A stretch of DNA of 64,000 nt, from assembly GCA_026075535.2 (NCBI GenBank), contig AP026548.1, positions 2,294,001 to 2,358,000 of the forward strand, in the 5' to 3' direction. Both the position numbers and the translations under genes were made by a program. Source of the DNA: Tricholoma matsutake. Taxonomy: Eukaryota; Basidiomycota; Agaricomycetes; Agaricales; Tricholomataceae. Positions 8,301-59,360 of this stretch are shown here, one piece after another (the stretch's first letter is position 1; each line of letters opens with the position of its first letter). Under the pieces are notes generated by a model that was given only the letters and a program-made list of their open reading frames with translations, was not told the origin of the DNA and did not search any database.

Positions 8301-8342
8301 GTGTGGGATGCAGCTACTGGTGTTCTGATGTCTTTGGACCTA
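6666..8342 (+). repeat. Thirteen tandem 129-bp WD40 coding repeats
   Basis: The unit begins at CATGGCCAT (His-Gly-His) and repeats every 129 bp, 13 times, with very high nucleotide identity. The invariant core reads [15 protein letters not shown] and [10 protein letters not shown] with small changes. Amino-acid differences cluster at a few positions: the residues after HGH, the residue before SVAF, the pair after SGS, and the E/Q-M/I pair near the end. This is the pattern of highly internally conserved WD40 repeats known from Podospora HNWD proteins, where those positions form the binding surface. Repeat 13 contains the premature TGA. Confidence 0.93.
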
Positions 8343-10559: not shown

Positions 10560-10833
10560 TGTTGGAGCAGACTATATACGCTGCACAGTGGAAGAGACAA
10601 CACGTTCCTTACAACCTACCTGGGGTTTACTTAGACTTACAGCTAGGGTTAGCAGAGGTAAGAACACTGTATTCCTACTACGGTACAGGTTCTCCTTATA
10701 TACATAATAATAAGGACGTCAAATGACTCAGGAATGTGTTTACCGCATGTATGCGCAGTAAGCGCAGTAACATGCGTATGCTGCATGTATTGCCTCATGT
10801 ATACAGCATGCATCACTGGGATTAATTTCAACA
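10560..10833 (-). repeat. Copia 1 LTR, 3' in element orientation
   Basis: 274 bp, TG...CA ends. Identical to the LTR at 15984-16257 except at five positions. This copy keeps CpG at four of them. Confidence 0.95.
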
Positions 10834-10842
10834 CCCCCCCTC
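10834..10842 (-). other. Copia 1 polypurine tract
   Basis: On the element strand GAGGGGGGG directly abuts the 3' LTR, as expected for the primer of plus-strand DNA synthesis. Confidence 0.8.
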
Positions 10843-10865
10843 AAACTGTACAGTGCTCTAAGCAG

Positions 10866-13800
10866 CTAAGTTTGAATCTTGAAAGTAATTCCGAGAGAGT
10901 CTCTAAATTTCCTGAATAGGACGGTGCCAAGGTTCTTTGTGAACATGTCAGCCGGATTATCACTTCCAGGAATGAAAATGACTGTGACTTTGTCATTTTC
11001 TATGCATTCGCGGGTGTAGTGGTAGGGAATGTCTATATGTTTGGTCCTTCTTTCCTGAACTGGATTTGATCCAATAAAGATGGATCCCTGATTATCAGCG
11101 CAGATTGGTACGCGCTTCAGTGTATATCCAAGTTCCTGGAATAAGGACTCTATCCACACTATCTGCCGACAAGTGTCAGAGAGAGCCATATATTTGGCTT
11201 CTGTGGATGACAGTGCTACAGTTTTTTGTAAACGGGACTGCCAGCACACAATGCCACTCGCCAGAGTAGCAAAGTAACCCGTTGTAGATCGGCGCTTGAC
11301 AGTGTCAGCTGCCCAATCAGAATCTGTGAAGGCCTGCAGCCCCTCGGATTTCTCTCCATCGTAGACTATACTGTACTTCTGGGTTCCCACCAGATAGCAC
11401 ATTATGTACATTGCTTTGTCTAGATGTTCTTGGCTAGGATTAGCCGAGAATTGTGACATCTTGATTACCATGTAAGCGATATCAGGTCGCGTTCCGAGCA
11501 TCAGATACAATAAAGATCCGATCACAGACTGATATTTCGATCTAAGCGCCGCATTTGGCATCGCTGTGTTTTCCAACGGTTTGTAGCCAGTCAGGAGCGG
11601 AGTGGGGGCAACTTTGGCATTTGTCATCTCGAACCTCTCGAGCACTTTGGTGAGATATTCTGTTTGATCGAGTTTGACTTTTGTAGCGGTCTGGGTGACG
11701 CGCATGCCTAAGAATTCCGTGACTTTTTCAGTACTACGGCACTCCCAATGCTTCAGGCAAGCATTCTTCTTTTCATCCACAAGTTTCTTGTTCTTGCCCA
11801 TGAACAAGCCATTGTCAACATAGACTAGTGCAATAATGATGCTGCCTGTCTTAGGATCCTTGTGTATGAAGATGCCGGCATCGGAGCTGGCGCGCACAAA
11901 CCCAATGGTGCACATAAATGCCTCTAGCTCTTTCCACCATGCTAGTGAAGCCTGTTTAAGGCCATACAATGCTCGGCGTAAGTGCATTACTTTGCGCTCT
12001 TTACCCTCGAGTCTGAAACCCTCGGGTTGATCCATATAGATCTCCTCATCAAGTTTGCCATATAAAAATGCGGTTTTTACATCTAGACCAGTCATATACA
12101 TGCCTTCTAGAGACGCAAGGGCAAACATGAGGTGTACGGTCTCGTAGCGGACTACTGGTGAGAAAATCTCATCAAAGTCAATGCCTTCGACTTGTGAAAA
12201 GCCTTTGGCCACGAGTCTGGCTCGTTTTCTTCCGTCCGATTTCACGGAGAAAACCCATCTATTTTTGATCGTTTTCCGATCATGTGGAAGATCGACGATA
12301 TCATAGACTTGTCGCTTGCGAAGAGCCTCTAACTCTTTACGACAAGCCTGTTTCCACTCAAGTTGCTGCTGCCAGGGTAGGCACACAATATCGTGAAATT
12401 GGTTTGGAACTAGGCTTTTTCCGCTTGATGGTGTGACTGCTTTTGATAACAGCCAGCGGGTAATCTCATCTCCACCTTCCTTGGTTATCTTTTTAATATA
12501 ACCTGCTTTGTCCAGTTCCCCCATTGGGTAATCATGTTCTTGATTATTGGAATCGGGCACACTCTCGTGGGGTGCCGAACTCGGTCCAGCAACCGGTTCT
12601 TGCTGTTGAGGTCATGGTCATGTTCGGTTATGATCCGAATCTTGACCCACAGACTTCTTCCAATATCGATCACGCGCAATGTCTCTCTCTATGTCAGAGG
12701 GGAGTCACTGTTCTCCATAGGTATTGCCGGGACGGTTTGGGATTTTCCTCTGCCTGCCTGATCGACGGGGCAATTGCTGCCATTCCTGTTGATCTTCACA
12801 TCTTGGACGAAAGTCCTCAGTGTTAACTGGAGGTGGCGGAGGAGGAGCGTTAGTCGCATCGTCATGCGCCTTTTGCTCACTTGGTAAATCATCATCATCA
12901 TCTTCTGATGATGGAGGAAGGGGCGGATTTTGTGGCGGTATAGGGTCATTGCCATCCGTTCCAGATGAGTGGTCATCATCTTCTGGTTCTGGAGGTGGAA
13001 AATCACCAAGGTCTGTCTTGGCAGGAGTTTTAGCTCCAGGACAGCATGGGAACATCGTTTCATCAAATAGTGCCGTGGCACCAATGAATATTGCACCATT
13101 TTGTTGCATGAAACGATATGCTTTAATGCCATCTTCTACTCCAAGGTACATCATTAACTCCGATCGAGGAGATAATGTTGTTGGACGTTTTTCCTTTGGT
13201 AGATAGACATAAGCACCGCAACCGAAGACCTTCAGATTGTTTAGATCTGGGCGGACCTTTGTCAGGTCCTCAAAAGGTGTCAGCCATTTCAGGCGCCTTA
13301 TTGGGGTTTGGTTGTATAAATGTGTTGCATGTTCTATGCAAAATTCCCACCATGATTGTGGTAGACAAGCGGTGAATTGCAAGGTTTGCGACTTTTCCAT
13401 TATTGTCCTTATGGCGTGCTCTGCGCGCCCATTCTGTTGATGAACGTGGGGTGCAGACATCTCTATTTTGATGCCTAAGTCCTTGAGCTGTTTTTGTAGC
13501 TCACGATCCTTGAACTCCCCCCCTGGATCGACACGCCAGTGCTTGATTGTAGCACCATATTGAGTTTTAGCCATCGCTTGAAATTGTCTAATCACTGCAG
13601 CAGCGTCAGATTTCTTTCTGAGACATTGGACCCAAATATGTGACATTTTGTCATCCAGAAATACAATGAAGTATTTATGTTTGTGGTACGATAGTACTGG
13701 GAGTTCCTTTAGGTCAGAATGTATTAATTTAAAGGATTTGTCAGCTCGTGAGTCTGACTCGGGAAAAGATTTTGAGGTCATTTTCCCTTCTGCACACCCT

Positions 13801-15767
13801 GGACATATAATTTTGTCTTTAGGAATAATTAAATTCCTTGGGAATTTTATGGTGCTTTTAGGCATTTTCCCTAGCGCCTCTTTGGATGGGTGTCCAAGTC
13901 GCCTATGCCAAGTCAAGTAGTCAGCAACATAAATGGTTGTGACATTAACCTTTTTGGTGCTCAATATATGAGTCCGAGCCCAATAGATCATGTCATTCCT
14001 CCTTAGAGGGACACAATGCATGATTGGGTTTCCATGCTCGATAAATGAAATGTGTGCAGAGGAACCACGCACATCACTTCTGTCTTGTAAAAAGACCCCC
14101 ATTGACATCAATCGAGTATTAGTGTCGGGTATGTAGTAGACGGGGTATAACCGCGTTTCACGTGTCTCTGACTTCCCGTGACATACTACCTGGTGTTTAA
14201 TGAAGACTGCTCCCTTTCCTACTATATGAGTAGTACCAGTGGCCATTTGGACCAAGGTAGAGTCCTTTCTTGGTAAAGGCTTGTAAGAAGCGAAATCTTT
14301 TATTTCACCAGTGAAGTGTTTTGATGCGCCTGAATCCATGATCCAGTCGGCACCTTTCTTACAATCTCCCTTTGCACACATAGCACATATATTAAGATCT
14401 AAATAATTCCATGATACATTTAATAGCGGTAAAATTTCATATGAAAAGTTTGCTGTATTCATAGGAACATTAATCTTAGTGCTTGTGGCAGGGAAAAGGA
14501 CTGACCTGTCATCATATGCCCCTGTATCAAGGGGTTCATCGACGAGCATTTTGTCGACGGCTTTCCACACTTCCTCATCAGACACTGGAGGTTCAGATCT
14601 GAGGGAGATGGTATCGTCTTCTACCTCCTCGATCCTAGACTCGGGTTCTGGTTCTATCCTTCTTCTCTTTCCTTCTCGCACCGTCAGGTGCTCTTCCAGC
14701 GGTCGCAGATTTTTCGCGCTGCGCGGAAGTTGCATTTGCTCGAGGGTGTCTCGAGCTTGCTGATATTCGGCATAAACCAAACGAGAGGTAGAGGCCGCGC
14801 CCGTATATGCCTGTGCAGGCAGTCAGCGGTGAGGATCCCTTGTGGGAGTGTGTTCGCGTCTTTCAATGCGCTGTATAAGCGGCATTGGCGGTATGATGGT
14901 GCCATTACCATTTATGGTGGTATAGGCTTTGGAGGCGAGGTGGGTATGTTTATCCTTTGGCTTCTCCTCCTTAGTCTTTCTGTCCCCATGTCGTCCACGC
15001 TTTCGGGACGAGTCTCCGTTGCTGTTTTGCCCTTCTTTGGGCTGCCATTTGGGGTTTCCCCCTTTGTGCTTAACAGCGGAAAGTTTGTTGGCCTGAGGCT
15101 GGCCAGTGGGCTTTCCTACTGCTGTGCACCTTGAGGCTTCAGCGACAATGGAGTCCTTGACATGTTTAAATGTCAAGGCGCTAGTAGCAGTCGTGTTAAG
15201 GACCATTGTGGACAAGGAATTGTACTCGCGCGGCATCGCAGCAAGTAGAATCATTGCTTGCACTAGCTCGGGGATGGTGATGTTAGCAGCCGTAAGGTGC
15301 TCAAATTTGTCTGCCATTCTAGCAATCTCCGGTGCGGGGTTTGCAGCCGGGATCTTGATCACTATTGCGGACCTAAAGTCCGCGAAGACTTGGGAGGGGC
15401 TGTCCACACCATAATCAGTGTGGATGAGATCCCACACCTCCTCAGCAGTGTCCTTTGAGTTGGCACGCTGCCGAATGGAGGGGGCCAGGCGGAGCACTAG
15501 GCTACCAATGGCCTGGTCATTTTTGTTGCTCCAGGTCTGGAGCTTGGCATTAGCATCCGCTACCAAAGTAGCGTTCGTCGCCGTCAAGGGAGGCGCTGGG
15601 GGCGGTTTTTGCTCCACCCCGCTAGTTATTTGCCAGAGGCCCTGAGACCTGAGCCACGCCTTCATTGAGTCGGCCCATTGAATGTAAATTGATCCGTCAA
15701 AAGTTTGAACGAGTTTCTCAAGAGTTGAAGACATGATTTTGTGGTGGCAGCTGTTAAAAGTGCTCAA
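10866..15767 (-). pseudogene. Copia 1 Gag-Pol
   Basis: One continuous reading frame from 15767 to 10866, interrupted only by TGA codons (after Gag at 14823-14825; at 12705-12707; two more just downstream of that). Gag (15767-14823) starts MSSTLEKLVQTFDGSIYIQW and belongs to the UBN2/copia Gag type. The protease motif is DSGASKHF. Integrase has an HHCC zinc site (HRRLGH...CPGCAEGK) and catalytic HSDLK, RVDPGGEF and GRAEH. RT contains RWVFSVKSDGRKRARLVAKG and ALVYVDNGLFMG, in which the second Asp of YVDD is Asn. RNase H contains TDSDWAAD and the C-terminal KHIDIPYHY. The catalytic change and the stops mean no active RT is made from this copy. The first TGA could in principle be a readthrough site. 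Confidence 0.9.
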
Positions 15768-15968
15768 TCAGTCTTTTTACTCAATAAAACATGTTTAATG
15801 TTCTCAGGAGAAAACACTCCTTCAGAGTGGTTAACCCTAGTCAACCTAGGTTTTATGTGCAGCTCGCAGGGAGTGCAATGCAGCTCACGAAGAGCGCAAG
15901 GTTATAATTTGGAGACAATGAAGTCAACGTCGTTTGCAGCCAATTAAGGCGCGTTCGCGATGTGCCCA

Positions 15969-15983
15969 GCAGGGCCCATAACC
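15969..15983 (-). other. Copia 1 primer-binding site, half-tRNA-iMet type
   Basis: Directly after the 5' LTR the element strand reads GGTTATGGGCCCTGC. Its complement GCAGGGCCCATAACC resembles the anticodon arm of initiator tRNA-Met, not its CCA end. This matches the internal half-tRNA priming established for Drosophila copia. The same 15 bases occur in copia 2 (38882-38896). Confidence 0.78.
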
Positions 15984-16257
15984 TGTTGGAGCAGACTATA
16001 TACACTGCACAGTGGAAGAGACAACATGTTCCTTACAACCTACCTGGGGTTTACTTAGACTTACAGCTAGGGTTAGCAGAGGTAAGAACACTGTATTCCT
16101 ACTATGGTACAGGTTCTCCTTATATACATAATAATAAGGATGTCACATGACTCAGGAATGTGTTTACCGCATGTATGCGCAGTAAGCGCAGTAACATGCG
16201 TATGCTGCATGTATTGCCTCATGTATACAGCATGCATCACTGGGATTAATTTCAACA
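15984..16257 (-). repeat. Copia 1 LTR, 5' in element orientation
   Basis: 274 bp, ending directly before AAGCA (16258-16262). Four of the five differences from the other LTR are CpG changed to TpG or CpA in this copy; the fifth is C versus A. Confidence 0.95.
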
Positions 16258-21731: not shown

Positions 21732-21736
21732 AGCAA
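21732..21736. repeat. Target-site duplication AGCAA (left, chromovirus 1)
   Basis: AGCAA before the 5' LTR, versus AGTAA after the 3' LTR (27432-27436). The single C/T difference is consistent with later mutation. Confidence 0.7.
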
Positions 21737-22138
21737 TGTTAGGAAACCACCCCATTACCTAATAAAATTTCATTTTTATTTTATTATGTCAAATTATGCT
21801 ACATGATGCCAAATTATGCTACACTTTGATAGCATGAGAATTTTATTTTGCACGCATCAAAATGTATGTGCATGTACAAGTGCATTGGTAACAACAATGT
21901 ACAATATATGTAACATAGTATATAAACCCTAAATATATGCCTAGGGGACCCCAGTTGTGTTCTCTTAGGTATTCCACCTATGCTTTCGGTATGAAAGGCC
22001 TTTCTCAACCAACTCATCTATTAATAACCCCTTGCATCAAAACCATCAGTTCCCCCATCATGAGCGCAGATCCTGCCCCCTTCTTGTAGAGAGAACCCAC
22101 ACGGTCTTAGCTAGCAGATAGTGGGTGTTGCCCTAACA
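21737..22138 (+). repeat. Chromovirus 1 5' LTR
   Basis: TGTTAGGAAACC...GCCCTAACA, 402 bp. About 16 differences from the 3' LTR by eye, most at CpG or its decay products. Confidence 0.93.
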
Positions 22139-22602
22139 GAAGAACACAACTTCCCATATCAGTGCACCTTCTCTTACTTGCACATATGTCATTGTTTCAC
22201 CGAGCCACATCCAATTACTCATCCTTTTGGCACAAGCCAGAAGTACTTGTACATACGTAATCTACCTTTTCTTTTGTAAGCCAATGCCAGGCCTCGCCTT
22301 ACATTGCAACTGCCAGTGATCGAGAGGCAGTGCTCGTCATTAGGACAGCTGCAACCAGACAACCAATTGGATCTGGTTTAGTTACGATTTACATCACTCT
22401 ATTCAGACGACTATTTTAGTTACAAGCCGAATTCAGTGTTATCTCTGAGATCAGGCACTGTTGGAAGGGTTATTGATCCGAAGTGTCAAATTAGGTGCCT
22501 GACAAATGATGAACCATCATGTGACCTGTAAACATTTGGAGAGGTCTTGAAGAACCAATCTTGGATTTGTTGAAGAAGTGATTCATCACAGATTCTACAA
22601 TT

Positions 22603-23690
22603 ATGTCCGAACCTTCAACTTCTAATCCCGGCCCTAATCCTGTTCCCACACCAGCACTAGAGGCAAAAATTGATGCACTTACAGTGCAAATGTCCCAATT
22701 AGTGTCAGTGTTGGCAGCATCACAGCCCAGACAAGCAGAAGTACAGCCAGAGATGACAGGAGAAAGAGATGATGAGATGGAGGAGATGGTGGAGTGGATA
22801 TCACAGGAGGATGAGACAGTGGAGAAATCCAGAAATGGAAAAGTGTGCTTACCTAAGTATGTGCCCCTGCAAATCTTTGATGGTACCATGGAGAATACAA
22901 AATCCTTCATCAGCTCTATAGTATTGTACATCCATGGGAGGAAGCCAGAGTTTTGTACAGCTGAGTCTAGGATTATGTTTGCTCTCTCATACATCCAGGG
23001 GGGGAAAGCACAGTTCTGGAGAAACGAGGCTATAAATCAAATTGCCATGGGAAATAAACCATTTGTAACCTTCAAGGAATTTCTGGAGAGATTGGAGGCA
23101 CAGTTTGGAGACCCTAATCCAAAGGCAACAGCCAATGCTAAATTAAAGACCATGCACCAAGGTTCCCTAATGGTGGATGAATTTATTTTGCAGTTCAAAG
23201 CAGAAGCTTCGCAAACAGACATGGGAGAAGCTGCATTGGTAGAGTAGGATTAAATCCCTCTTTATTCAAGTCTATCTACCGACTACCTTCTATGCCAGAG
23301 AAGTTGGACGAGTGGTATAGTTGGGCAATGCACCTTGACTGGCAATATTGGCAGGAACAGGCGGAGTCAAAGTTGATGTATGGAAGTAGTAAATTTGGAA
23401 AGTCATCAGGAGGAAAGTCTGAGAAAGGAAAGACGCCTCAGGCCCACGCTCCAAGGGCACAGCCATCAGCCATGGCAGTGACACCTATAGTTATGGAGTC
23501 AGCAGCACCAGCAGAGGCAATGGAGGTTGATCAAGCAGGGAGACAAGCCCCACTTAAATGCTTTAACTGTGGGCAGTTAGGACACATTTCTAGGAATTGT
23601 AGGCAGAAAAGAAAGATTAGGGAAGCTACAATCGAGGAAGTGAAGCCAGAGGAAGGCAAGCAGAAGAATTTTGTGGAAGAGTCCCAGTGA
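22603..23690 (+). pseudogene. Chromovirus 1 Gag
   Basis: The first open part (22603-23247) begins MSEPSTSNPGPNP and carries the Ty3-type capsid region (FDGTMENTKSFISSIVLYIH, GGKAQFWRNEA, QFGDPNPKATANAKL). A frameshift near 23240 moves the remainder to another frame (to 23690). That part continues GLNPSLFKSIYRLP, PEKLDEWYSWAMHLDWQYWQ, a Gly/Ser/Lys linker and a zinc knuckle CFNCGQLGHISRNC. One lost base would explain the break. Confidence 0.85.
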
Positions 23691-23913
23691 AGGTTTCCCC
23701 ATTGGTGACCCAGAATCATTACAATGTATTAGTATCCAAGGAAACCCAGAGCAAATCAGAAAAGGAAATCGAGGAGGAGTACAACCATTCTGAATCACAT
23801 GATGAAAAGGAGTACAACTGTTGTCAATCACATGACAAGAAAATTGTCATGCATCATTTCCGAAAACCCCTAAATTCTTTATTTGCTCTGCGTGAATAGA
23901 ACCCGAAATCACC

Positions 23914-26900
23914 TTGACTGTGGGATTGAAGACAGTGGACACGCATGCAGCGATTGATGTGGAAGCATTGCTTGATAGTGGTGCTACAGGATTATTTATT
24001 AATCAATCCTTAATTACCAGAAACGGTATTAACACACGCAAGCTGGCGCAACCTATAATGGTGTACAATATTGACGGAACAGTCAATCATGGAGAAACTA
24101 TCAAGGAGGAGGTGACTATCGTCCTAAAGTATCAGGTGTATCAGGAGCGAGCAGTATTCGAAGTGTGCGATCTTGGGAAAACCAATCTAATAATAGGATG
24201 TCCGTGGTTACAGAAGCGTAATCCCAAAATTGATTGGAAAACTGGGAAAGTACAAATGACTCATTGTCCTAAGGAATGTAATGTGTATGGAAGGAAGATG
24301 AAGAAGGAAAAAAGGAAAAAGAAAGAAAAAGAATGTCCGAGAAAGTATTCTGTTACAATGGAGGAAGTGGAGGATGAGGAAATGCCAAATGAGGAAGTTC
24401 TGGTCATTATCAAGAAAGAAGAGCAGAAGGCTGCATTTGCCACACATCGAGGATCCTTCGAGCTGCTTGTCATGTTTTTTGGGATGACTAATAGTCCCCA
24501 ACCTTTCAAAATATGATGAACAACATTTTCAAGGACATAATAGACAAAGGCGTGGTAATAATATTTATTGATGACATTCTGATATTCATGGAGGATGAAG
24601 AGAATCATGAGGCAATAGTGCAGGAGGTAGGTGGAGAATGATCTATTTTTGAAACCGGAGAAGTGTGTGTTTGGGGCAAGCGAGATTGAGTTCCTAGGGT
24701 TATTGATCAGCCCTGATGGGATCAAAATGGATCCGATCAAGGTACAGGCGATCACAGATTGGCCTGCGCCCACCCATGTCAAGGAGGTTCAAGCCTTCTT
24801 GGGACTCACAAATTATTATCATCGCTTTGTGCACAATTTTTCTAAAATTGCTGCACCCTTACATAACCTTATGTGAAAGGGAGTAGTATGGAGGTGAGGA
24901 GAGCAGCAGCAGACAGCATTTGAGGAGTTGAAGAGGAAGTTTGTGGAGGGACCAATATTAGCCCCAGTAGATTTCACATGCCCTTTGCGAGTGGAATCCG
25001 ATGCATCCGATTTTGCTACTGGAGCGGTATTATCAATGCTGTGCGAAGATGACAAATGGCATCCTTGTGCATATTTGTCCCGAGGGTTGAATTATGTGGA
25101 GAGGAATTATGATGTGTATGACAAAGAGATGTTGGGGATAATACGAGCATTGGAGGTGTGGAGACATTATTTGGAGGGATGTACACATCAGATTGAGATC
25201 TGGATGGATCATCAAAATCTGCAATACTTCATGTCTGCTAAAAAGCTTAATCGCCAGCAAGTGCATTGGGCACTATTCCTATTGTGTTTCAATTTTCACT
25301 TGGTCCACAAAGCAGGAAGCTTAATGAGGAAAGCAGATGCATTATCCAGACGTATTGATCCTAAAAGGGGGGTGGAGGAGGACAATAAGAATGTTACCTT
25401 ACTCAAACCCGAATACTTTCGCATTTGTGCTATGTGTCAAGGGCATCTATTAATAGATAGCTCGGAAACAGAAATGTTGTCTAAAATCAGACAATGTTTG
25501 GAAATGGATGATGAAGTAGTGGAAGCCGTGAAAGCTCTGAAGAGAGAGAAGAAAGGTAATATCAAAGGAGATGAATGGGCTGAGGAACAAGGGTTGGTGT
25601 TGTTTCAAGGAAAAGTGTATGTACTGAAGGATCAGGATTTGCAAAGGGAGATCATCCAGTTACATCATAATACACCGACTGCCAGACACCCAGGAAGATG
25701 GAAGACATTGGAATTAGTAATGAGAAATTATTGGTGGCCCGGAATTTCGAAGTATGTGTTGGGGTATGTGGATGGATGTGATACGTGCATGAGGGGGAAG
25801 AAATTTCCAGAAAAACCTGCAGGAAAATTAATGCTGAACCCTATACCTAAAGCACTGTGGCGAGATATATCTGTGGATTTTATTACCGGATTACCTGAGG
25901 CTCAAGGGTATGATGCAATATTCGTAGTATGCGACCGCTTCACAAAGGAGGTCCATATTATTCCTACTACTACAGAAACCTCATCATTGGGCTTGGCGCA
26001 CCTTTATCTAAATCAGGTATGGCGGTTACGTGGGTTACCTGATACTGTTATCTCTGATCACAGACCACAATTTGCTTCTGCATTTATGCGAGAACTGAAC
26101 AACATATTGGGGATTCAAACTAAATTATCTACGGCATATCACCCACAGACTGATGGGCAGACAGAGAGAATGAACCAGGAGTTGGAGCAGTACCTACATA
26201 TGTTTGTCAACTACCAACAAACCAACTGGCCCAAATGGCTGGCAATTGCCAAATTTTCCCACAATAACAAATTCCATTTGGCTACTCATATGTCACCCTT
26301 TTTTGTGAATTATGGATATCATCCTCGCATGGGAGTAGAACCCAGAAGGGAAGTCAAAGTACAGTCAGTAGAAGATTTTGTATCTAAGATGCAAAAGGTA
26401 CAAGAGGAAGCAGAGGCAGCATTGAAGAAAGCACGTGATGATATGATGTGACACACGGATTGTACTCGAGCACGTGCTCCAGAGTACAAAGTTGGTGACT
26501 TGGTATGGTTAAGTACCAAGGACCTGAATATTCCACGACCTTTGAGGAAACTTACAGAAAAACAAGTTGGCCCATATGTGATCTCTAAAGTAATCTTGCC
26601 TAATGTGGTAGTGCTAAAATTACCCTGATCATTCAAGATTGATCCTGGGATTAACGTATCCCGCCTATGCCCTTACCGCCCACCCACTATTCCTGGCCAA
26701 CAAACTACTCCGCAACCTCCAATAATAGTAGAAGGTGCTCCAGAATACATAGTTGAAGAAATTCTAGACTCACATCTTCGACGGAACAAATTGGAGTTCT
26801 TAATAAAGTGGAAAAACTATACCGACAAAAATCATTTGTGGGAACCCGAAGAGAAGTGTAAGTGAGCATGTAACGCAATCGCCCAATTCTTTAAACATAA

Positions 26901-27018
26901 TCTGAATGCTCCGCATTGCATTGTGAGAATGGTGTATGAGGGGATGAAATTCCAGCCTTACCAAAATTTCACAGAGGGGACAGACGTAATATTTTCTTGC
27001 CTGGAAGTCGAGGCATAA
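23914..27018 (+). pseudogene. Chromovirus 1 Pol with RT deletion and chromodomain
   Basis: The protease (23914-24300) has the active site DSGATG. At about 24420 the sequence jumps from an acidic Lys/Glu linker directly to AAFATHRGSFELLVMFFGMT, so the RT fingers and first catalytic Asp region (roughly 150-170 residues) are missing. RT then retains IIFIDDILIF. RNase H follows (VESDASDFATGAVLS). Integrase has H2C2 (HHNT...CDTCMRGK) and the D,D,E core, with DHRPQF in place of DxGxQF. The C-terminus VEEILDSHLRRNKLEFLIKW is a chromodomain. TGA codons break the frame at about 24874, 26449, 26626 and 26863. Confidence 0.88.
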
Positions 27019-27029
27019 AAGGGGGGTAA

Positions 27030-27431
27030 TGTTAGGAAACCACCCCATTACCTAATAAAATTTCATTTTTATTTTATCATGTCGAATTATGCTACATGAC
27101 GCCAAATTATGCTACACTTTGACAGCATGAGAATTTTATTTTGCACGCATCAAAATGTATGTGCATGTATGAGTGCATCGGTAACAACAATGTACAATAT
27201 ATGTAACATAGTATATAAACCCTAAATATATGCCTAGGGGACCCCAGTTGTGTTCTCTTAGGTATTCCACCTATGCTTTCAGTGTGAAAGGCCTTTCTCA
27301 ACCAACTCATCTATTAATAACCCCTCGCATCAAAACCATCAGTTCCCCCATCATGAGCATGGATCCCGCCCCCTTCATGTAGAGAGAACCCACATGGTCT
27401 TAGCTAGCAGATAGTGGGTGTTGCCCTAACA
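27030..27431 (+). repeat. Chromovirus 1 3' LTR
   Basis: 402 bp, preceded by GGGGGGTAA (polypurine tract). Ends in CCCTAACA followed by AGTAA. Confidence 0.93.
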
Positions 27432-27779: not shown

Positions 27780-27986
27780 GCACATCTACAATGAAAGTCT
27801 TGTATCTCACTCATTTCTTGTCTGATTAGGTTCATTTAAATACAGATGGGAAAGTACATCATTGGCCAGTCATCGGGAGAGTAGTTGGCAATGTTTGGCA
27901 TTCTTGTCATGGCTAAATATAGTATCTCCTTCAGTTTTCATCCAATTTGCATGATTTAACTTGCAAATGAAAAGTATGCAGTTGGT
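27780..27986. repeat. AT-rich satellite, left of the RecQ-DUF6589 element
   Basis: Shares GTCATGGCTAAATATAGTAT and GATTTAACTTGCAA with units at 34470-34640 and later. It is the left flank of the element starting at 27987 and continues at 34275. Confidence 0.75.
27978..27986. repeat. Target-site duplication GCAGTTGGT (left)
   Basis: Nine bases identical to 34266-34274 and directly abutting the inverted termini. One terminal base is ambiguous, so the duplication is 8 or 9 bp. Confidence 0.85.
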
Positions 27987-28130
27987 TAGTCTCAGTTCCA
28001 GAAGTTAGGGAGAGATCCGGTGGGGTCTGAAGTTGGAGGCAAAAAAAGTTGAACAAAACATCTTCAGCCAGCTCTCTCTAACATCTGGTGCATTCTGATA
28101 GGAAGGGGTGGGCTCAGGTCACAAAGTCAC
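27987..28130 (+). repeat. Left terminal inverted repeat of the RecQ-DUF6589 element
   Basis: Shares, in inverted orientation with 34085-34265, TAGTCTC at the tip, GGAGGCAAAAAAAGTTGAAC, TAACATCTGGTGCA and AGGGGTGGGCTCAGGTCACA. The right copy is longer because of indels totalling about 35 bp. Confidence 0.88.
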
Positions 28131-28171
28131 GAAAGTAACTAGATGTAACATAGTGTAACAAATGGGAATGA

Positions 28172-30899
28172 GTGATGACGGCACAATTTAATTGCAGTGG
28201 ACGTCAAGTGGGCATAATGGCAATAGATGCCTGCAAATTCTTCTTTTATGATGACTCTGATGACAAAACAGATGACTCCCTTGAACATGTGGACAATAAA
28301 CCTGACAACTGCGCTAAGGATCTCTTGGATGATGAGGAAGAAATTGGAGAGCCCATACCTCTGGTGCATACCTTCAACATGAAGCAGAGACTTGCCAATG
28401 AGGATCTTGCATCGAAAGTCAAGGAAGTTCTGTCTTTCATGAAGCAGAAAAAAATCAATCTCCCCATTTTCCTCGATGCTTTGAGCTGGGGTGATGCTGG
28501 CTGCTGTTCTGATCCAGAGATTCAGTATGCAAGAACAAGTCTTATGGTTAGTGAGGAGCTTCCAGGGATTTTAATGTGCTGGTACAAACCTCCAAGAAGT
28601 CTGAACCACAAGAAAGGAAAGTGGCTGGCTGGTGCAAGGAACACCCTTCTGGAATTTGTGGTGGAATGTGTCAGTGATGTTGTAGATCGGGAAATGAAAT
28701 GCTCAGCCTTGTTGTTTTTGTCACTGCCCAAAGAATTGACCAAAGAACATTTGACAAAACTGGATTTCAAAAAATTCAAAACCAAGATTATTTGAGATGC
28801 GCCGGTATTTTGGGGGCTCCTGCAACACACCGCATATAGTAAGAAGCAGGGGTTGCAGAACAGACACAAGGATCCAGACATGGTAAGTACTAAGTTACTT
28901 TCTACATGGCCTAGACTTATGAACTATTATCTAGGTAATCCTAAACATGGTCTCACAAGTACAATACACATGGTCTCATCAATGCAGCCATTTAGCCAAG
29001 CTTTGGGCCATCTATCTCAAAGCTTGTGGTCTCTCTGCACACATGTTTGATGCCGTACATGCATTAGGAATCATGATGAGCCACAAGTGGGCTGCAAATG
29101 CTTATGGAGATCTCTCTGAACTCAAAATGAAGGAAGTCCAAGCAGTTATTCACAAACTGCTGTGGACAATTACGTATGACAATGTCAATTTACTGCTTCG
29201 AGTCTTTTCTCAGTGGTTACACAATCAAAGCCACTTTGTCAGTGGTTGCACTGCCACAGTATGGGTTTTACCTGCACGAGCTGCTCTGCCCCCGGATACC
29301 AACTGACTCCTGCAAAAACATCATGCCCAGTTTGTGGCAACACTTTTCCGATTGATGAAGTCCTGTATGGTGATGAGATCACAGATCAGCACATGGAAGT
29401 GCAGCATATTTATTGTGTTCTGCATATCCTTCTGGATTCCCCCAAATTCTTGGACTATCTACATTGTGATAGTGAGCTGTTCAGTCTGCCACCTGCTGTC
29501 AACAGATTGTGTGCTGGACCTGATAATGTTACTCAGGAATCTATTCTTGGCACTTCCGAGCTGGAAGAAGCAAGCTACAATGGCACACTAAAAGTAAAAG
29601 CAGAATTTTTTTGACAACTTCACCTTCACACAAAGGAAGAGCAGATTCAAACTGGATTGGAGCATGTAATTGCTTGGATGGGAGATCAGTTGACTGTCGA
29701 ATGGCTACAAGGTCTCTGGAAGTATCGACACAAGGATTTCAATTCATTTGACCGCATGGATTACATGATTCCAGTCTTTGGATGGTTCCACTTGGTCATG
29801 GCAGTTGCAAATTCTCTGCATAAGCAATACCTTGGAACATCAGCTGGCATTGGAGGAATGTGTCAGGCATTTGATATCCTGAAATGAAAAGGCCTGGTAA
29901 CTCAGTCAATAAAAGGTCCATTCTGGCACCATCTTGACAAGGCAATACACCATATTAGCAAAGCGCATTTCAGATCAAGCTGGCTCATAGTTGGCAATGT
30001 TAAATCTTTGGTTGAGCTCAAGTCAAAATCACCATGGCAACTTTGTGACCTTGTGAGGAGGGTCATACATGAGCATGCAAGTCAGGAAGCACTTGTGTGG
30101 ATGGATACTCTCTCTGTTGAGAAGCAAGATGCAGTGGACCATGTGGAACATGGATGTGTTACCATATCTCGAATTATGGGATGCTATCAAGCATGGTGAT
30201 GTCGGCTGTATGGAGGACTTACTCCCTACACTCCTCTTTCAGTTTTCTGGAGGTGGTAATCCAAAGTATACTATTGAGATCCTTGAACTGCTCCAAGGGC
30301 TGTGACGAGAATGGCCTGAAGATGTTTCGTAAGTTTGCTTTGCTACTCTTATGTGAATTTCCACTTAGTGACAACGATATAGTAAGTATATCTGGGAATG
30401 GTGTTGGTTGATGAATCAAGCTGGAAAAGAGGACTCATGGCTTGCATTTGACCTTGGACAAGAAGAAAATATCTGTGACATCAAGGTTAACTTTCACTCT
30501 ATGGGCCCAGGTGTGAAAATGGCTTACATGCACAAAATTTCACCTGCCATTCCAACGTTATGAGCCATTCAATGACATGTGGAAAATCAATTCAAGACTG
30601 TTGCTTGAGGTGCTCACCATGGAGTGCCAGACAAGGAGAAGGATGTGCAAATGCTGACAACACAATACAGTGATTCCAAATTGCATGGTCACACAGCTGG
30701 TCAAAAGATTAAAACAAGTGTAGACAGGTCAAATGATTTTATTTCAATTGGTGCAGATAATCTAGAGTGGCTCAGGACTATAAGTGAGTGGTTTAAATGT
30801 CGTACACACCCTCGTTCAACAGCAGAAGATTGGGGTCCTGAGCCAGAAATAGAACCACTTGTGCAAATAATAATTATGTATGATAATTTTGATTGTTGA
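28172..30899 (+). pseudogene. DUF6589-family protein, inactivated by TGA stops
   Basis: Nearly the whole family sequence is readable. The N-terminal part is SFMKQKKINLPIFLDALSWG. A GT-AG intron lies at 28883-28934, joining HKDPDM to VILNMVSQVQYTW. Then come GIMMSHKWAANA, ITYDNVNLLLRVFSQ, MGDQLTVEWLQGLWKYRHKD, FGWFHLVMAVANSLHKQYLG, a segment with GDVGCMEDLLPTLLFQFSGG and a C-terminal THPRSTAEDWGPEPE. In-frame TGA codons occur at about 28793, 29612 and 29885 and again near the 3' end, usually where CGA would give Arg. The YDN and GDQL acidic residues may be catalytic (inference). It converges on the RecQ gene with about 30 bp between them. Confidence 0.82.
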
Positions 30900-30928
30900 G
30901 TCCATGTCCATTGCACTTCAGAGATGGT

Positions 30929-33900
30929 TCAGTGGTGCAGTATAGGATATAAGAATAGCAGCAGATAACAGCCAGAATAGAAGTGTGCAGGAGGGAGTGG
31001 ACTGGTAATGGGGGTCGGTGCTGGCAGTTGTTGATGCAGAATCGGTGTGAAATGTGGAGGTGTCACATAGGCTTGTGAATGGGTAAAAGAAAGATGGATA
31101 TGGTTGGTTGGTTGAGAAATAGGCATGTACATCTGCAGGAGATAGTGTGGCTGAAAGTGGGCAGGTGGTTGTGGCATATGTGGTGTGACATGTTGAGGAG
31201 AGACATTCTTGGGTCCAGGATGGGGTGTTGAAAGAGCAATTGCAGAGAATGGGAAAGGTGAGTTGAGGATGAGAGTTGAATCTGCTAAGGTATGTGTGAC
31301 CTTGGGAGTCTTCTTTGCACAAGATGGTCATGGCTTTTTTGGTTGACTCTCACATTCTGCTTGCCTTTGAGCTGTTTCAGCCTTTGCAGCTTCGCATTTC
31401 TCTGCCTTTTTCAAAGCTTGCTGCCCAGCTGTCTCCTGCTTTCACTTTTCTGCCTTTTGGAGTTTCTCCACCTCTCACACTTTGTAGAATTTGTCATCAT
31501 ACACCTTCAACAATTCCAAGACTTCTTGCCCATGTTTCTTTGAATGTTTTGGGCTCCATCCGGTATCTATCAGGTCATCAATGGAACTAAAGCAAGCTTT
31601 TGTAGCAATTGATGTGATCAAGACATCTGATAGGAAGCAATGATGACCCCATGGCCGACAATGGTAGAACTCCAGCTGAGTCTTTATCCGCCACTTCTCC
31701 AACAACTCTCATGCACCTTTGAGGTGAGCGTCTTGATGGTTGGCAACCTTGGCTCCTTCAGCCATTTGCCATTTACCATTCTCATCTGCCTCTTGCTGAG
31801 GTGAGTCCTCAGTATCACTACTTGGAGGATGGTGAGGGGCAGTATTGGATCTTGCAAGGAGTGGGTGATCAGTATTTGATTTGAGAAGGCAATTGTTGCA
31901 ACAGATTCCTGTTGGCTCTAAGAAAAGGAATTGAGTTGAGCAGCATAGAACATGAGCAACACCTACATTTTTGTGGGACACCATCATTGAAGTATATAGC
32001 AGAAGTATCACGATGGCAGCCATCAGTCTCGATCCACTCGTGTAGCCCAGCTTCAACATCCTTCCAATATTTCACTTCACCATCCTCTGGTTCGATCCCT
32101 TTTACTGGCTTGAGCTCTTGGAAAACACTTGGCTGCACCAGCAAGATGGCCCAAGCATAAATGTAACAATTGTGTCCGCCACATCCTGCCTGCTGTGTCC
32201 ATATTGACATTGACTTTGGGACCATGAACTGAACAACTTGTTCGACATGGGGTAAGTCACAGCCCTGCAATGGAGCTTGTCAGGTTTCAATACGATGAGA
32301 TACTGTCAAATGACTCACCATTCCTGCAGCCTCAGTGGTAAGTAGAATCTTGATCTGACCCTTTCTGTTACAACTTTCCTTGTAACTCATGGAACCTGAC
32401 GCACCCGACAATCCCCTCCAGACAGGAGGCACCCCTTGACTCATGCCTGTGGCATGCCCTTGACACCAGACACATGCACAATGCATGCTGACTGCATGCA
32501 TTCAATCCCCTTCCCAAGGAAGGCACCCTTGATGCATGGTGACTCCATGCACCCAAACCTACTCCCACACATGCTGTGATATGACAACCTCTTGACATGA
32601 GGTCCGTGACATCGGACACCTCATGCAAGGCATGAGGGCTATTGTTTCTATTCTTACTTGATATGCATCTACCTTTCCAATTGGACAATAAGGACCTCCC
32701 TTGTAGTATAAGTACTGCAACTCATAGTAGGGATGTCCTTAGTTTAGATCTAGGCATTCTACAGCCTTAACTTGCAACTCACGAACTTACTTGAAACCAC
32801 TAAGGAAGCCCCTTAGTGTGTGAACCTGAATGACTCTACACAGAAGCCCTGCTAGAGTGCACTACCTATCTTATGTCGGACGCTCTGAGTAAGAACTAGT
32901 GCCAAACAACTCGTCAAGGAAGCACCTCGTCGAACAACATTGACTAGATCGAGTGGTTGAGGCTTTGCCCTTAACACTTTCAATATTCTTGCAAGACATG
33001 ATCTTTGGCTCATTTACTACACCTCAAGTTGTATACTGCCACCTGATCCTGCAAATGAGGAGGTAGCTGGCTTTGAATCCATTTTAAAGCTTCCAACACC
33101 ACATTGATATCATCAAAGAATACCATGGTCTGTACGAGCTCCATGAGCTCTTCATCTGTTGTGTCAGGAATAAGAAATGATAGAGATTCAAAATCATTTT
33201 TTGCTCCTGCCATACGCTTCACAAACCATGCAATATTTGGCCTGTCTGTACCCAGATTGACATGATATGATGTATCAGCCTGCATGTGAACTGTAGCGTG
33301 AACCTGAGCCAGAACAAGCGGGGGAAGTGTCACCAATATTTTTTTTGGTGAGTTTAGAAGTTGGCGGAAGCGATCATGCTCGAGACATAGTTCAGGTGAG
33401 GTAATGATAACATGATGTTGAAGTTTTTCTAGTTCCTTCAGATGGGTTCATTTCAGCCTTGTAAGTACATTAGCATCGTCAACTAGCATGATCACCTTGT
33501 GAACATCATTATTATAAGTGTCACCATTGACAGCAACTGCGGAGAGTCCCATTTTTTTAAACTGGCTTGCCTGTTTAACCAACAAAAATGTGACCATCCA
33601 GTCACCTTCTGAAGGAGAATGCATTACCTGGTCCTCCTCCAATGCATTAAGTGGAGATATCACAATCATTATTTTTTCAGACTCAATGAACAAGGGCATA
33701 ACAAAGGGCATGGTCTTTCCTGCACCTGTACCAGCTATAACTGAGCAGTCCAGACCAAGCAAGAGTGCCTCCGACACATCTATCTGCCACTCATATGCAA
33801 CCATTCCCTCATTCCGCTTGCTAAATTCCGTGTGCAGCTTCAGTCGCATTGCAGCTGATTGATAACCATGCATTTTGAGTGCATCCTCCCGTGCTTTCTG

Positions 33901-34002
33901 CAGATTTCTTGTGGAACATTCAATGTCAGTCTTGTACGATGCGAAACGCACTTCTTGTGATGCCATCCTGTGATGTCGGGACCACCCGGTATAGTAAGTC
34001 AC
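30929..34002 (-). pseudogene. RecQ-like ATP-dependent DNA helicase, broken
   Basis: A superfamily 2 helicase of the expanded Agaricomycete RecQ type. N-terminal ALLLGLDCSVIAGTGAGKTM is motif I; VISPLNALEEDQ is motif Ia. At about 33340-33360 the frame runs RFRQLLNSPKKI directly into LVTLPPLVLAQVHATV, so the segment that should carry DEAH (motif II) is deleted. The second RecA lobe continues YHVNLGTDRPNIAWFVKRMA, then ILLTTEAAGM and, after an intron ending near 32267, GCDLPHVEQVVQFMVP. Motif VI reads QQAGCGGHN in place of the usual QRxGRxGR. The C-terminus has LLEKWRIKTQLEFY, a Lys/Ala/Glu coiled coil and a Pro/His-rich tail. A solo LTR (32366-32976) sits in the second lobe. Confidence 0.83.
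32366..32976 (+). mobile_element. Solo LTR A in the helicase gene
   Basis: 611 bp, TGTTACAACTTTCC...GCCCTTAACA, with 5-bp duplication CTTTC at 32361-32365 and 32977-32981. No internal region remains, so it arose by LTR-LTR recombination. Its 3' third carries AAGC-loop hairpins such as CACTAAGGAAGCCCCTTAGTG minus its last base. Same family as the solo LTR at 48591-49205, in opposite orientation. Confidence 0.88.
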
Positions 34003-34084
34003 ACCCAGGAGAAGAGATGCATGTCAAATGTCAAGCCAAAAAGGGACATTTCGGTGGAGATAAATCATGATGGTTTCAACAATT

Positions 34085-34265
34085 TTGTGACCTGAGCCCA
34101 CCCCTTATGATCAAACTGCACCAGATGTTATAGGGCAGGAGCTTGCAAGTGTTTCGTTCAACTTTTTTTGCCTCCGACTTCAAACTCAGCTCAGACCAGT
34201 TCACTGGACCTCCTACATGAGCATCAGCGAGTGTCTCCTGCCCTATTTCGTCGGGAACGAGACTA
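34085..34265 (-). repeat. Right terminal inverted repeat of the RecQ-DUF6589 element
   Basis: Inverted relative to 27987-28130, with the tip GAGACTA directly followed by GCAGTTGGT (34266-34274). It contains two copies of a CTCCTGCCCTAT-type motif in opposite orientations. Confidence 0.88.
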
Positions 34266-34274
34266 GCAGTTGGT

Positions 34275-36480
34275 CTATCATTGGGAAATATTTACAAGTA
34301 TTTGGGATTGTTTGTTTATAGATCAAAAAGATCAAAATAACTATATCAGAGCCAGTTTTTACTCAATTGAGTTTATTTAACTTGTGGAAGGGTATGTAAC
34401 TTGGACACTTTACCCTGTGCTGACAAAGTTGTTTATATTTGTTTGTTAGATTATCAAAATACTGTATCTTGCTCAATTCTTGGCTGATTTCTTTTATTTA
34501 ACTTGGAATGAGAAGATACATTATTGGCCAATCATTGGGAGGGTATTTGGCATTGTTTGGCATTGTTGTCATGGCTAAATATAGTATCTCCTTCAGTTTT
34601 CATCCATTTTGGATGATTTAACTTGCAAGATAAAAAGTATACTGTTGGTCTATTATTAAAAGATACTTACAAATATTTGGCATTATTTGTTCATATATCA
34701 AAAAATCAAAAAGATGATGTCAGTAGTGTTTAAAGGTCCAGTCTGTAGGACCAAAAAAAAGACCAAAACTGAACTGAACTGGACCGATTAGGACCGGACC
34801 AGTGGTCTATTTATGGACCGGTCTTTTTCAGTCCAGTTGCTGGTCTTTCATTTTGAAAAATATAGGACCAATGAAAAACCAGTTTAAACCAGTTTCGACT
34901 GGTTTTTTGTCCTAACATATGTTGGACCTTACTCCCACACATATTTACTTCATTTTCGGTCCCTGGACCATCAAAAACAGTCAAGAATTGGTTGAGATAT
35001 GACCAAAAACATTTTTGTACAAGTATTTTGTTGTATCAGAACAACTTTGATTGCATTGCTTATTACCTGAGCCATAATTTTTTTTGTACAGCTATATGAC
35101 ATCATAAAAGTAACAGCAACACACCTAATCATCTGTACCATGGGATTTTATTTATATAACTGCCCAAATGAGTGCAACTACAAACTACAAATTACAAACT
35201 ACAAACTGCAACTTGAATGCATGTCCTTTTGGTTTTGGCCATATCTCAGTCAAATCTTGATGGAATTGCTTAAATGTTGGATCAGTCTATGGAGCATTAC
35301 AATCTCCATCCATGAATATAATACATATGAGGTAATGGTCATATTTGTTGAGATACATATGGGTTATTTGGCACAATAAATTTTATGACAAAAGACCGGT
35401 CTGAACCAGTCTTTTTTCGGTCCATGGACCAATTAGGACTGGTCCTAAAGGGTCCGGTTGTGGTCCTCCAATATCTGGGTCGGTCCTAGACCGGTTGCGG
35501 TTGCTGGTTGCCCCATTTGGAAGTCAAAAACTGGACTGGACTGGACCTTTAAACACTAGATGTCAGAGCTGGTTTTAACTCAGTTGAGTTTATTTAACTT
35601 TTAGAAGGGTGTAGCTTGGGCACTTTACACTGACAAAGGTTGTTTATCTTTAATTGTTAAATCATCAAAATACTGTATCCTGCCCATTTCTTGGCTGATT
35701 TGTTTTATTTAACTTGGAATAAGAAGATACACTATTGGCCCATCATTGGCCAATCATCAGAAGAGTATTTGGTATTGTTTGACATTGTTGTCATGCCTAA
35801 ATATAGTATTGCTCCATTTTGGATGATTTAACTTGAAAATAAAAAGATACTGTTGGTCTATCCTTAAAGGATATTTACAGATGTTTGCTATTATTTGTTA
35901 ATATATCAAGCAGATCAAAAAGACTATATCAGAGCCAGTTCTAATTCAATTGAGTTTAACTTGTAGAAGGGTATGTAGCTTGGGCATTTTATACTATGTT
36001 GACAAAATTGTTTATCTTTATTTGTTAAATTATCAAAATGCTGTATCTTGGTCAATTCTTGGCCAATTTGTTTTATTTAACTTGGAATAAGAAGATACAT
36101 TATTGGCCCATTCATTGAGATCATGTTTGGTATTGTTTGGCATTGTTTGTGGTATCTCAGTTAGTTCTTCTTTAATCCAACTGATTTAACCCACAAATAA
36201 AATATATACTGTTTGTACATTATCTGATTTATGTGTGCTAACAAAGGTTGCTTATATTTGTTATTAAATCATCAAAAATGCTGTATCTCACTCAATTCTT
36301 GTCCCATTAGTTTTATTTAACTTGAAATAAAAAGATATATTGTTGGCCCATTATTGAAATCTCATTTGGATTTATTTGGCCTTGTTTGTATAGTTTCAAT
36401 TTATTATTTCAGTCAGTTCTTATATAAACAATGTTGTATACTATTGGACCATCATTGTTAAGTGCTGAACTTGAGGGTGG
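34275..36480. repeat. AT-rich satellite-like array
   Basis: Degenerate repeats sharing CTGTATCTTG, TTTTATTTAACTTGGAAT, CATTATTGGCC and GATTTAACTTG...ATACTGTTGGTCTAT. Recognisable unit starts lie near 34460, 35670, 36040 and 36280, so spacing is irregular (about 240-370 bp). It is interrupted by hAT element copy 2. No genes. Confidence 0.7.
34724..35558. mobile_element. hAT-type non-autonomous element, copy 2 (835 bp)
   Basis: The left end TAGTGTTTAAAGGTCCAGTC and the inverted right end form TIRs. An exact 8-bp duplication GATGTCAG flanks it (34716-34723 and 35559-35566). The interior is rich in GGACCGGTC-like and GACCAGT motifs, typical subterminal repeats. No coding capacity. Confidence 0.92.
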
Positions 36481-51439: not shown

Positions 51440-51794
51440 CTTAGACTCAGGACAACTTGAAATTCCTATGATACAATGTGACATGAAATGACAGTGTCAA
51501 CAAGATGAGTTGATCAACTCAACAATCCCTATGTCATTTCAAGCTGAGGTAAGATGTTAAATCGTTCATTTCTCCACCTTGATCCCTCCAATAAGAGATC
51601 TCAAGGGTTTCCCAGGGATCCACAGGGATACTGAAGTATGGACTTTTGACTGGGTATCAAGTCTTACAGGATTCAATACAACAGTGTGATATGAACCAAA
51701 CTGCTCAATGTGACCACAGACTTTGCCACTATTCATAGAATAGCAGGAGGGATTTAATACATTCTATAGGTTTAGTAAGGACCCATATTACATA
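51440..51794. other. Gene-free stretch
   Basis: Target region of chromovirus 2. It ends in ATCAC (51795-51799), the left copy of the duplication. Confidence 0.45.
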
Positions 51795-51799
51795 ATCAC

Positions 51800-52506
51800 T
51801 GTCAAGAACCATTCCTTGCCCAATAGGAACCCGCATCCATCCAAACCTTTCCTGCACATCGAACCCAACATTTGTCTATGCCTCCCAATTTTGTTCCCAG
51901 CTGCCTTGCACTGCCCACACTGCTGTGCACCAGGCCACCTTGTACAGCACCCACAGCTGCCTTCCCAAGGCTGCCATCTCTATTGCAAATTTGACTATGG
52001 ATTCCTGTGCGGCTCCTGCTAGGTAATTTATCTATGCAGTCAAGACACTGCCGCAGTCTTCGTTCCTGTTCTGCATTTATTCCAGACTACAGTATTTAAG
52101 CTTAGTTAGTTTTGCCTTGTATTCCTCAGTTTGTATATTGACATAGACTCGACTTTACCCTGCCAATCTAAACCTCCTTCTACTCCAACCTCAGTTCTCT
52201 AAGAGTCTGAACTCCATTCAACTTGACCTCTAGTCTCCCTCTGCAGTTCTAACCTCACCTGAACTTAACCTAAGTCCCTCCATACTCCTTCCCACGTTTA
52301 CCTGCACTTTCCTGCTCCTACCTCCAAACCTTCGACTTAAAATTAGGACACCAGACGAGGTGAAGGGTGTAGCTTCTTACAAGCTGAAGCCAAGTCCTTT
52401 CCATTTCCCCTCGCACAGAATCTGCAATGACCCGACAACCTTCTGCTATCATCACCCACAGGGTCCAATCAGATTCCAACATCCCTTTTAGGATCAGTTC
52501 TTAACA
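51800..52506 (+). repeat. Chromovirus 2 5' LTR
   Basis: 707 bp, TGTCAAGAACC...CAGTTCTTAACA. It is almost identical to the 3' LTR over the central ~400 bp; differences are mainly transitions. Confidence 0.94.
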
Positions 52507-52669
52507 GTATATACAAACTCACACTTCACTCATCCCATTCCTCTCTATGACCCCTACCAAGACCTGCCAGCGCACAACCAGAAATTCCCAACGTGCTGGT
52601 ACTATCCCAGGGATCTCTGCAATCCAGTGATCCACCCTTTCCGACCCTCATCCCACCACTACTTTTGGA

Positions 52670-53943
52670 GTGTCTTCCAGACCCTCAAGCATATTCCAAC
52701 AAATCAGCTCAGGAGCCCCTTCAATCAGTGCCAATCTCATGTCCACCTGTGCCCTGCACCCTTCCACCAACCCAGAAGGTTTTCGATCAAGAACTCCCCT
52801 TGAGTACGTAAGGGGCATCAACCAGCCTGAACCCTTTGGGTTGGAAGATCCTGGTCTAGAGGATGGACCCCCCGGCAGACCCAATGACCCTAGTGGTCCT
52901 GATGGCCCTGGGGGTGACCCCGATCCCAATGATCCAGAGGATCAACCTCCCATGGGGGAAAACCCTGACCCAGGGGATAGGTTCATAGATGTCCTTTACA
53001 ACCTCTCAGAGAGTATCTGCACCCTTCATCAAAATAATGCACCCAAGACCGAGAAAATCAAAGTTTGTGACCCCAACACTTTCGACGGTGCCAATACAAA
53101 GAAACTTAGAGACTTCCTAGTCTCCTGCAATCTTCATCTCTGTGACCATCTGCATGCATTTTCCTCTGATGAGAAAAAGATCATATTTATCCTTTCTTAT
53201 CTTAAAGGATCAGCTCTCAGTTGGTTTGAGCCTGGTCTTAATGACCCAACAGATTCCGCACACTGGATGTATCATGTGGGACTATGAAGCTTTCCTCACT
53301 GAGCTGGAAAGTAACTTCGGCTTGCATGACCCGGTCAGAGATGCAGAAAAAGCTCTCTCTGACTTAACAATGAAGAAAGGTGGTCGTATCACGAAATATA
53401 ATGTTGACTTCTGGGAGAGCTTCTAGGGTCAACTGGAATGAAGCAGCCCTTTGTGACCATTATTTCTGCGGTCTTCTGCTCCAGCTTTGCATAGAAGTTC
53501 TCTGGGGTGGTAAACCCAATACTCTTGCAGAACTGCGCTTGAAAGCACAGGACAGCGACAACATCTACTGGATGCAAGAAGATGAATCCCATTTTGAAAC
53601 AAAGAATTCCAGTAACGTCACTAACTCTAGTCAGAAGGACTCTTCCAAAAGTCCTTCCCCGTCGACAAACCAAGCCTCTTCAAACTCTGCCTGCAGTAAC
53701 ACCTCCAACCAGCAGTCTTCCACGACAAAGAACACTCCCTGGGACAAGCCCAAGTCATCCATCTCTGATAAGTTGGGGAAGAACAGCAAGCTTACTGGGG
53801 AGGAACAAGAACATTGCATGAGAGAACGACTTTGTCTCTACTGCGGTGAAGAAGGGCACATAGCAGGAAACTGCCCAAAATCCAAAGCCGCAAAAGCCCA
53901 TGCATCCATTGTTGTTCCCGACACTATGGACTCGGAAAAATAG
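52670..53943 (+). pseudogene. Chromovirus 2 Gag
   Basis: Starts MSSRPSSIFQQISSGAPSIS; a Pro/Asp/Gly-rich stretch follows (GPDGPGGDPDPNDPEDQPP), then capsid motifs FDGANTKKLRDFLVSCNLHL and FILSYLKGSALSWFEPGL. A frameshift near 53270 moves the next part to another frame (FLTELESNFGLHDPVRDAEK), and a second near 53400 moves it again (ELRLKAQDSDNIYW). The zinc knuckle CLYCGEEGHIAGNC is near the end. Confidence 0.85.
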
Positions 53944-53999
53944 TCCACAACCCTCAGGATACAGCCATTGGGGTTGGGGGTTGCATTGACCTTACCCAT

Positions 54000-57621: not shown

Positions 57622-57710
57622 AGTCTATTCACGTTACTTACTCACTCAGTCTGAACTCAGAAACAAACTTTATTGAAAAAAGAATTTTTTCTTTGGATCC
57701 AACTGGATCC

Positions 57711-59295: not shown

Positions 59296-59360
59296 CCAAC
59301 TTCCTCATTCGGACTCAAACCCTCATGTGCCTCATAGGCTCGGCACTAAGGGGGAAATAC

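Follow-up and report, generated by a model that had tools for sequence, protein, structure and literature searches.

Gene content and limits of the unit

The stretch of DNA analysed here, hereafter the window, comprises 64,000 nucleotides of the basidiomycete Tricholoma matsutake (assembly GCA_026075535.2, contig AP026548.1, positions 2,294,001 to 2,358,000) and holds a transposon unit of 6,279 bp at 27987-34265 (host genome position C11:2321987-2328265), in which a gene of the protein family DUF6589 (PF20231) on the plus strand converges with a gene for a RecQ-like helicase on the minus strand. An earlier reading made from the sequence only had named the same two convergent genes; both are present, as PF20231 and PF00270 matches, and, as a correction to that reading, both are broken. 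The DUF6589 gene (28217..30914, +; found by Pfam scan and six-frame search, its span taken from tblastn at this locus, L016) matches PF20231 in two open reading frame (ORF) pieces with E 1.2e-7 and 1.6e-10 in the Pfam scan and with 178 and 138 bits in the six-frame search; its reading frame is interrupted by stop codons and by frame breaks. The helicase gene has an outer span of 30692..33981 (-) by tblastn with 120 relatives, while genome searches give 31016-33906, and shows a DEAD-box match (PF00270) on the minus strand. It too has frame breaks; the part in which its relatives carry the DEAH motif is missing, and a solo long terminal repeat (LTR) later inserted at 32366..32976, with a CTTTC repeat on each side. 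Because of these stops, frame breaks, lost DEAH stretch and solo-LTR insertion, the window copy can make neither protein whole.

Repeat alignment places the terminal inverted repeats at 27987..28125 (+, tip TAGTCTC) and 34084..34265 (-, tip GAGACTA), and two identical copies of the 9-bp target-site duplication GCAGTTGGT are read directly outside them (27978..27986 and 34266..34274). The long repeats are imperfect, with gap-free arms of 50 nt (88%) and 36 nt (92%), and their alignment scores 136, whereas none of 200 shuffles exceeded 32.5, so that the tips, inverted repeats and identical flanks reported in the sequence-only reading hold good.

Empty sites

The flanks of the window unit belong to a high-copy dispersed repeat, for which first-look searches gave 344 and 362 candidates. 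When the flanks were joined with the duplication counted once, the 40 places scored out of 362 candidates matched at 96-98%, and 37 of the 40 spanned all 200 bases. Two copies of the target repeat that lack the insert lie near the unit itself (34540..34730 and 35735..35960); these are the insert-free units noticed earlier near 34640 and 35845, which had been taken for a satellite and are instead members of the dispersed repeat. A second element (L033) sits in a different repeat, with 25 of 77 rows covering the joined 191 bases at 85-97%, and a third (L030) has weaker empty-site support, with 26 of 33 rows crossing the junction over 64-87 bases at 75-84%. The target repeat of L033 looks palindromic, since plus- and minus-strand matches to the joined flank lie next to each other in its copies.

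These empty sites bear on the simplest dissenting account, in which unrelated dispersed repeats make up the inverted ends and both genes belong to the host. Nested repeats are abundant in the region, which would suit such an account; the empty sites nevertheless refute it, the duplications also speak against it, and we give it practically no credence.

Pairing in the host genome and ends of sibling elements

Searching the host genome with PF20231 returned at least 117 matches in at least 90 clusters, counts that are lower bounds with 102 of 249 candidates scored, and two RecQ queries returned 146 matches at 70 loci. The RecQ neighbour that the sequence-only reading had proposed to look for lies within 5 kb of 29 of the 90 clusters when all 146 matches are taken in, 27 of them convergent and 2 divergent, against a mean of 0.44 and a maximum of 4 pairs in 1000 trials of random placement. 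A narrower count, using 59 of 76 RecQ matches after second exons were dropped by hand, gave 28 pairs within 5 kb, of which 27 are convergent and 1 is divergent. Among the first 20 loci ranked by DUF6589 score, tblastn with 120 RecQ proteins found RecQ convergent in 8, divergent in 2 and in none of the remaining 10; five further loci, L029-L033, were picked for being paired and make up, with the first 8, the 13 convergent loci considered below (L001-L008 are places already within L018-L027 and were not counted twice).

Matching tips together with 9-bp duplications were found in 11 of the 13 convergent loci. The two copies of the duplication, whose sequence varies between loci, agree at 9 of 9 positions in L014, L016 (the window), L022, L024, L027, L030, L031 and L033, at 8 of 9 in L020 and L032, and at 7 of 9 in L029, where both mismatches are G to A. 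Three of the eleven were not found blind: L020 and L027 had their ends placed where the aligned repeats stop, and L029 had them located by pattern search. When flank identity was computed over lengths of 1-14, it peaked at 9 in all 11 loci, tied with length 3 in L024. The tips TAGTC, TAGAC, CAGCC, CAGGC and CAGTC give the consensus YAGNC, and a search with the tip pattern returned 22 exact matches compared with 7 for the reversed control pattern. No matching tips with a duplication were found in L023 and L028, the other convergent loci read; apparent terminal inverted repeats at L023 were rejected, as they look like LTRs in inverted orientation. Empty sites, shared termini and convergent pairing across the host genome thus bear out the earlier proposal of a mobile unit.

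The expectation of inverted termini and duplications of 8-9 bp at DUF6589 loci held for these 11 convergent loci. At the 12 fetched loci without a convergent RecQ, the search showed no inverted repeat around DUF6589, and a tip scan gave rows at chance level, two of which (L013 and L017) scored as high as the true ends of L016. Ten of these (L009-L013, L015, L017, L019, L021 and L025) showed no match to RecQ over the 9.9 kb read, nor any enclosing inverted repeat, and 61 of the 90 clusters had no nearby RecQ with the two queries. The suggestion that such a unit explains the expansion of DUF6589 therefore stands only in part, and the RecQ-less loci would be single-gene lineages or wrecked copies. 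Several of them hold retrotransposon-like ORFs, as judged by eye. L018 and L026 are similar DUF6589 loci with a RecQ match upstream, divergent rather than convergent. L035 contains a 1.2-kb relative (249-1486) that keeps the TAGTCTC tip at both ends and remnants of RecQ, and whose 9-bp duplication, GACCTGCCC, is exact.

DUF6589 as a predicted transposase

Two structure models of DUF6589 resemble DDE transposases, with Hermes (hAT) and the P element as the closest solved folds, and predict an RNase H-like fold with a catalytic set of D302, D471 and E716 (P0002 numbering). Three acidic residues are conserved among DUF6589 relatives, in motifs that include YDN and GDQL; in the window gene the corresponding plus-strand codons, placed by conserved motif, are those of the first predicted catalytic D in TYDNVN (29178..29180), the second in GDQLT (29684..29686) and the predicted E in DLGQEEN (30462..30464). 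The models and conserved motifs thus predict the RNase H-like core and acidic triad of a DDE/D transposase and support the proposal, already made from the acidic motifs in the sequence-only reading, that DUF6589 is the putative transposase of the element.

The DUF6589 profile retrieved nothing from the sequences of the PDB beyond two weak, unrelated matches, and in viral contigs 26 stretches fitted a pattern and none encoded a relative; a family not listed in the VIA lists is not thereby excluded. A protein search with the DUF6589 ORF of a RecQ-less locus gave 45 matches, those with a species name all being fungal.

The family label of PF20231 assigns it no function, and its genomic clusters in this single fungus number at least 90. 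In the literature searched, DUF6589 is mentioned nowhere and PF20231 is nowhere stated to be a transposase, and the new point here is a likely job for this common fungal protein family. If PF20231 is named a predicted transposase, many 'hypothetical proteins' of mushrooms would be re-labelled as likely transposon genes, and many genes annotated as 'P-loop hydrolase' or 'DNA 3'-5' helicase' would likewise be likely transposon genes and not host repair genes.

The RecQ-like helicase as a probable partner

Two scanned relatives of the window helicase have DEAD and Helicase_C domains, and the consensus of 35 relatives contains GTGAGKT, DEAHCISQWG and QRAGRAGR. The ratio of nonsynonymous to synonymous substitution rates (dN/dS) between diverged copies was 0.18-0.39 in RecQ and 0.09-0.23 in DUF6589 (four pairs per gene; saturation affected 15/21 and 9/15 pairs), and 0.54-0.71 between closely related broken copies, which suggests past selection on both genes.

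The same pairing appears to recur outside the host. Searches yielded 83 DUF6589 relatives, with Tricholoma matsutake as the best short match at 86% (P0006), and 187 RecQ matches, 120 of which were listed; rows with named species were used (72 of 83 for DUF6589 and 98 of the 120 listed for RecQ), and 11 and 5 nameless rows and the last 17 RecQ rows were dropped. DUF6589 and RecQ came from the same species and from equally long contigs in at least 27 cases (27 DUF6589 and 25 RecQ rows) in 20 species, co-location on one contig being inferred from the equal sizes, and equal-size contigs between different species numbered 0, with 1.0-3.9 expected for assumed genomes of 150-40 Mb. Examples are a 5,312-bp contig of Agrocybe and the Paxillus locus tags 12087/12088. 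Such matches suggest the same pairing in the 20 species, and the correlation of DUF6589 with RecQ distances (r 0.87 over 25 pairs, 0/5000 permutations; 0.82 over 18 shallow pairs, 0/5000; 0.50 over 7 deep pairs, 409/5000) suggests that the two genes are co-inherited.

These data must be set against the idea that RecQ is a captured host passenger and that DUF6589 alone mobilises the element. It would accord with the many DUF6589 loci that have no RecQ, yet the low dN/dS of RecQ between diverged copies, its divergence in parallel with DUF6589 and the apparent pairing in 20 species together suggest long joint service, and we judge a passenger distinctly improbable. The dN/dS pattern is as expected of a needed helicase partner and, with co-inheritance, supports the accessory role for RecQ put forward in the sequence-only reading. 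DUF6589 would bind both element ends, cut them and join them to target strands 9 bp apart, and the helicase may open or remodel DNA, either at the element's termini or while gaps are repaired; why such a transposon would need a helicase becomes testable with the paired unit.

Relation to known transposons

Taken together, the unit is very probably a DNA transposon, now broken, that ends in inverted repeats and duplicated 9 bp of its target; DUF6589 is its predicted DDE transposase, the convergent RecQ-like gene would supply an accessory helicase, and it likely belongs to the AcademH lineage. Terminal inverted repeats are a trait of Academ and are present here; the primary paper on AcademH is that of Kojima (2020, Mob DNA 11:15). 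In PMC10045372, AcademH makes duplications of 9 or 10 bp and AcademX of 3 or 4 bp, the difference being tied to helicase and nuclease, and PMC10799480 places AcademH in Basidiomycota, Ascomycota and Mucoromycota. The unit shares with AcademH a helicase, a duplication of 9 bp and a basidiomycete host. It differs from AcademX, a member of the same superfamily if the AcademH assignment is right, in having a helicase and 9-bp duplications in place of a nuclease and 3-4 bp; no nuclease domain was found at E up to 0.1 when seven ORFs of the element in the window were scanned against Pfam. Since these described traits fit, copy number excepted, the unit probably belongs to an already known kind, and the earlier impression that such units were undescribed does not survive the published accounts of helicase-encoding Academ elements with 9-10 bp duplications (PMC10045372 and PMC10799480).

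The principal challenge to the AcademH assignment is that DUF6589 and RecQ form a separate superfamily outside Academ. The link to AcademH runs through published descriptions; AcademH is described as low-copy in fungi in PMC10799480, whereas at least 27 convergent pairs occur in this one genome; the element has a convergent two-gene layout, YAGNC tips and, in DUF6589, a large helical insertion without a conserved C/DxxH column (scattered occurrences in 16 of 71 alignment rows, at most 4 per column, between D471 and E716); and the word DUF6589 is absent from the literature searched. These points favour a separate superfamily. The pairing of a helicase with 9-10 bp duplications, in fungi, is however just what PMC10045372 and PMC10799480 state for AcademH, and a separate superfamily is the less likely because two superfamilies would have to have it in common by chance; we therefore consider it unlikely. 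Only slightly more credit is due to the broader proposition that DUF6589 is a mushroom DDE superfamily of its own between hAT/P and RAG/IS256, with a dedicated RecQ throughout the Agaricomycetes that lies behind much of the RecQ expansion there.

KolobokH is the other fungal lineage with a RecQ helicase, reported only from fungi in PMC9587614, and in one rhodophyte Kolobok described there RecQ is on the complementary strand, so that orientation alone is no bar to Kolobok. The helicase of KolobokH nevertheless lies downstream of the transposase domain, whereas 27 of 29 pairs here are convergent, and the C/DxxH between the second D and the last E that the same source gives as a signature of Kolobok, hAT, P, MuDR and Dada, KolobokH included, is not conserved in the DUF6589 alignment. 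These contrasts make a KolobokH element a very remote prospect. Kolobok targets are TTAA, against the varied 9-bp duplications found here. Hermes has a helical insertion before its last acidic residue, to which that in the DUF6589 models may be likened; hAT (Hermes) and P elements, the closest modelled folds, make duplications of about 8 bp, and the unit differs from them in its helicase partner, its 9-bp duplications and the lack of a conserved C/DxxH. Helitrons, which have neither inverted ends nor a duplication, were considered and rejected, as the unit has both.

Other features of the window

Elsewhere in the window, at 4770-8325 (+), a NACHT-type ORF precedes a WD40 ORF containing about 12.9 near-identical units of 129 bp (91% matches); this would be an NLR-like gene with homogenised repeats. 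Three LTR-like direct repeat pairs were also seen: at 10560-16257 (98% identity), with reverse transcriptase and integrase matches inside; at 21735-27431 (96%), with a polyprotein ORF judged by eye; and at 51794-60066 (95%), with a retroviral-protease match inside.
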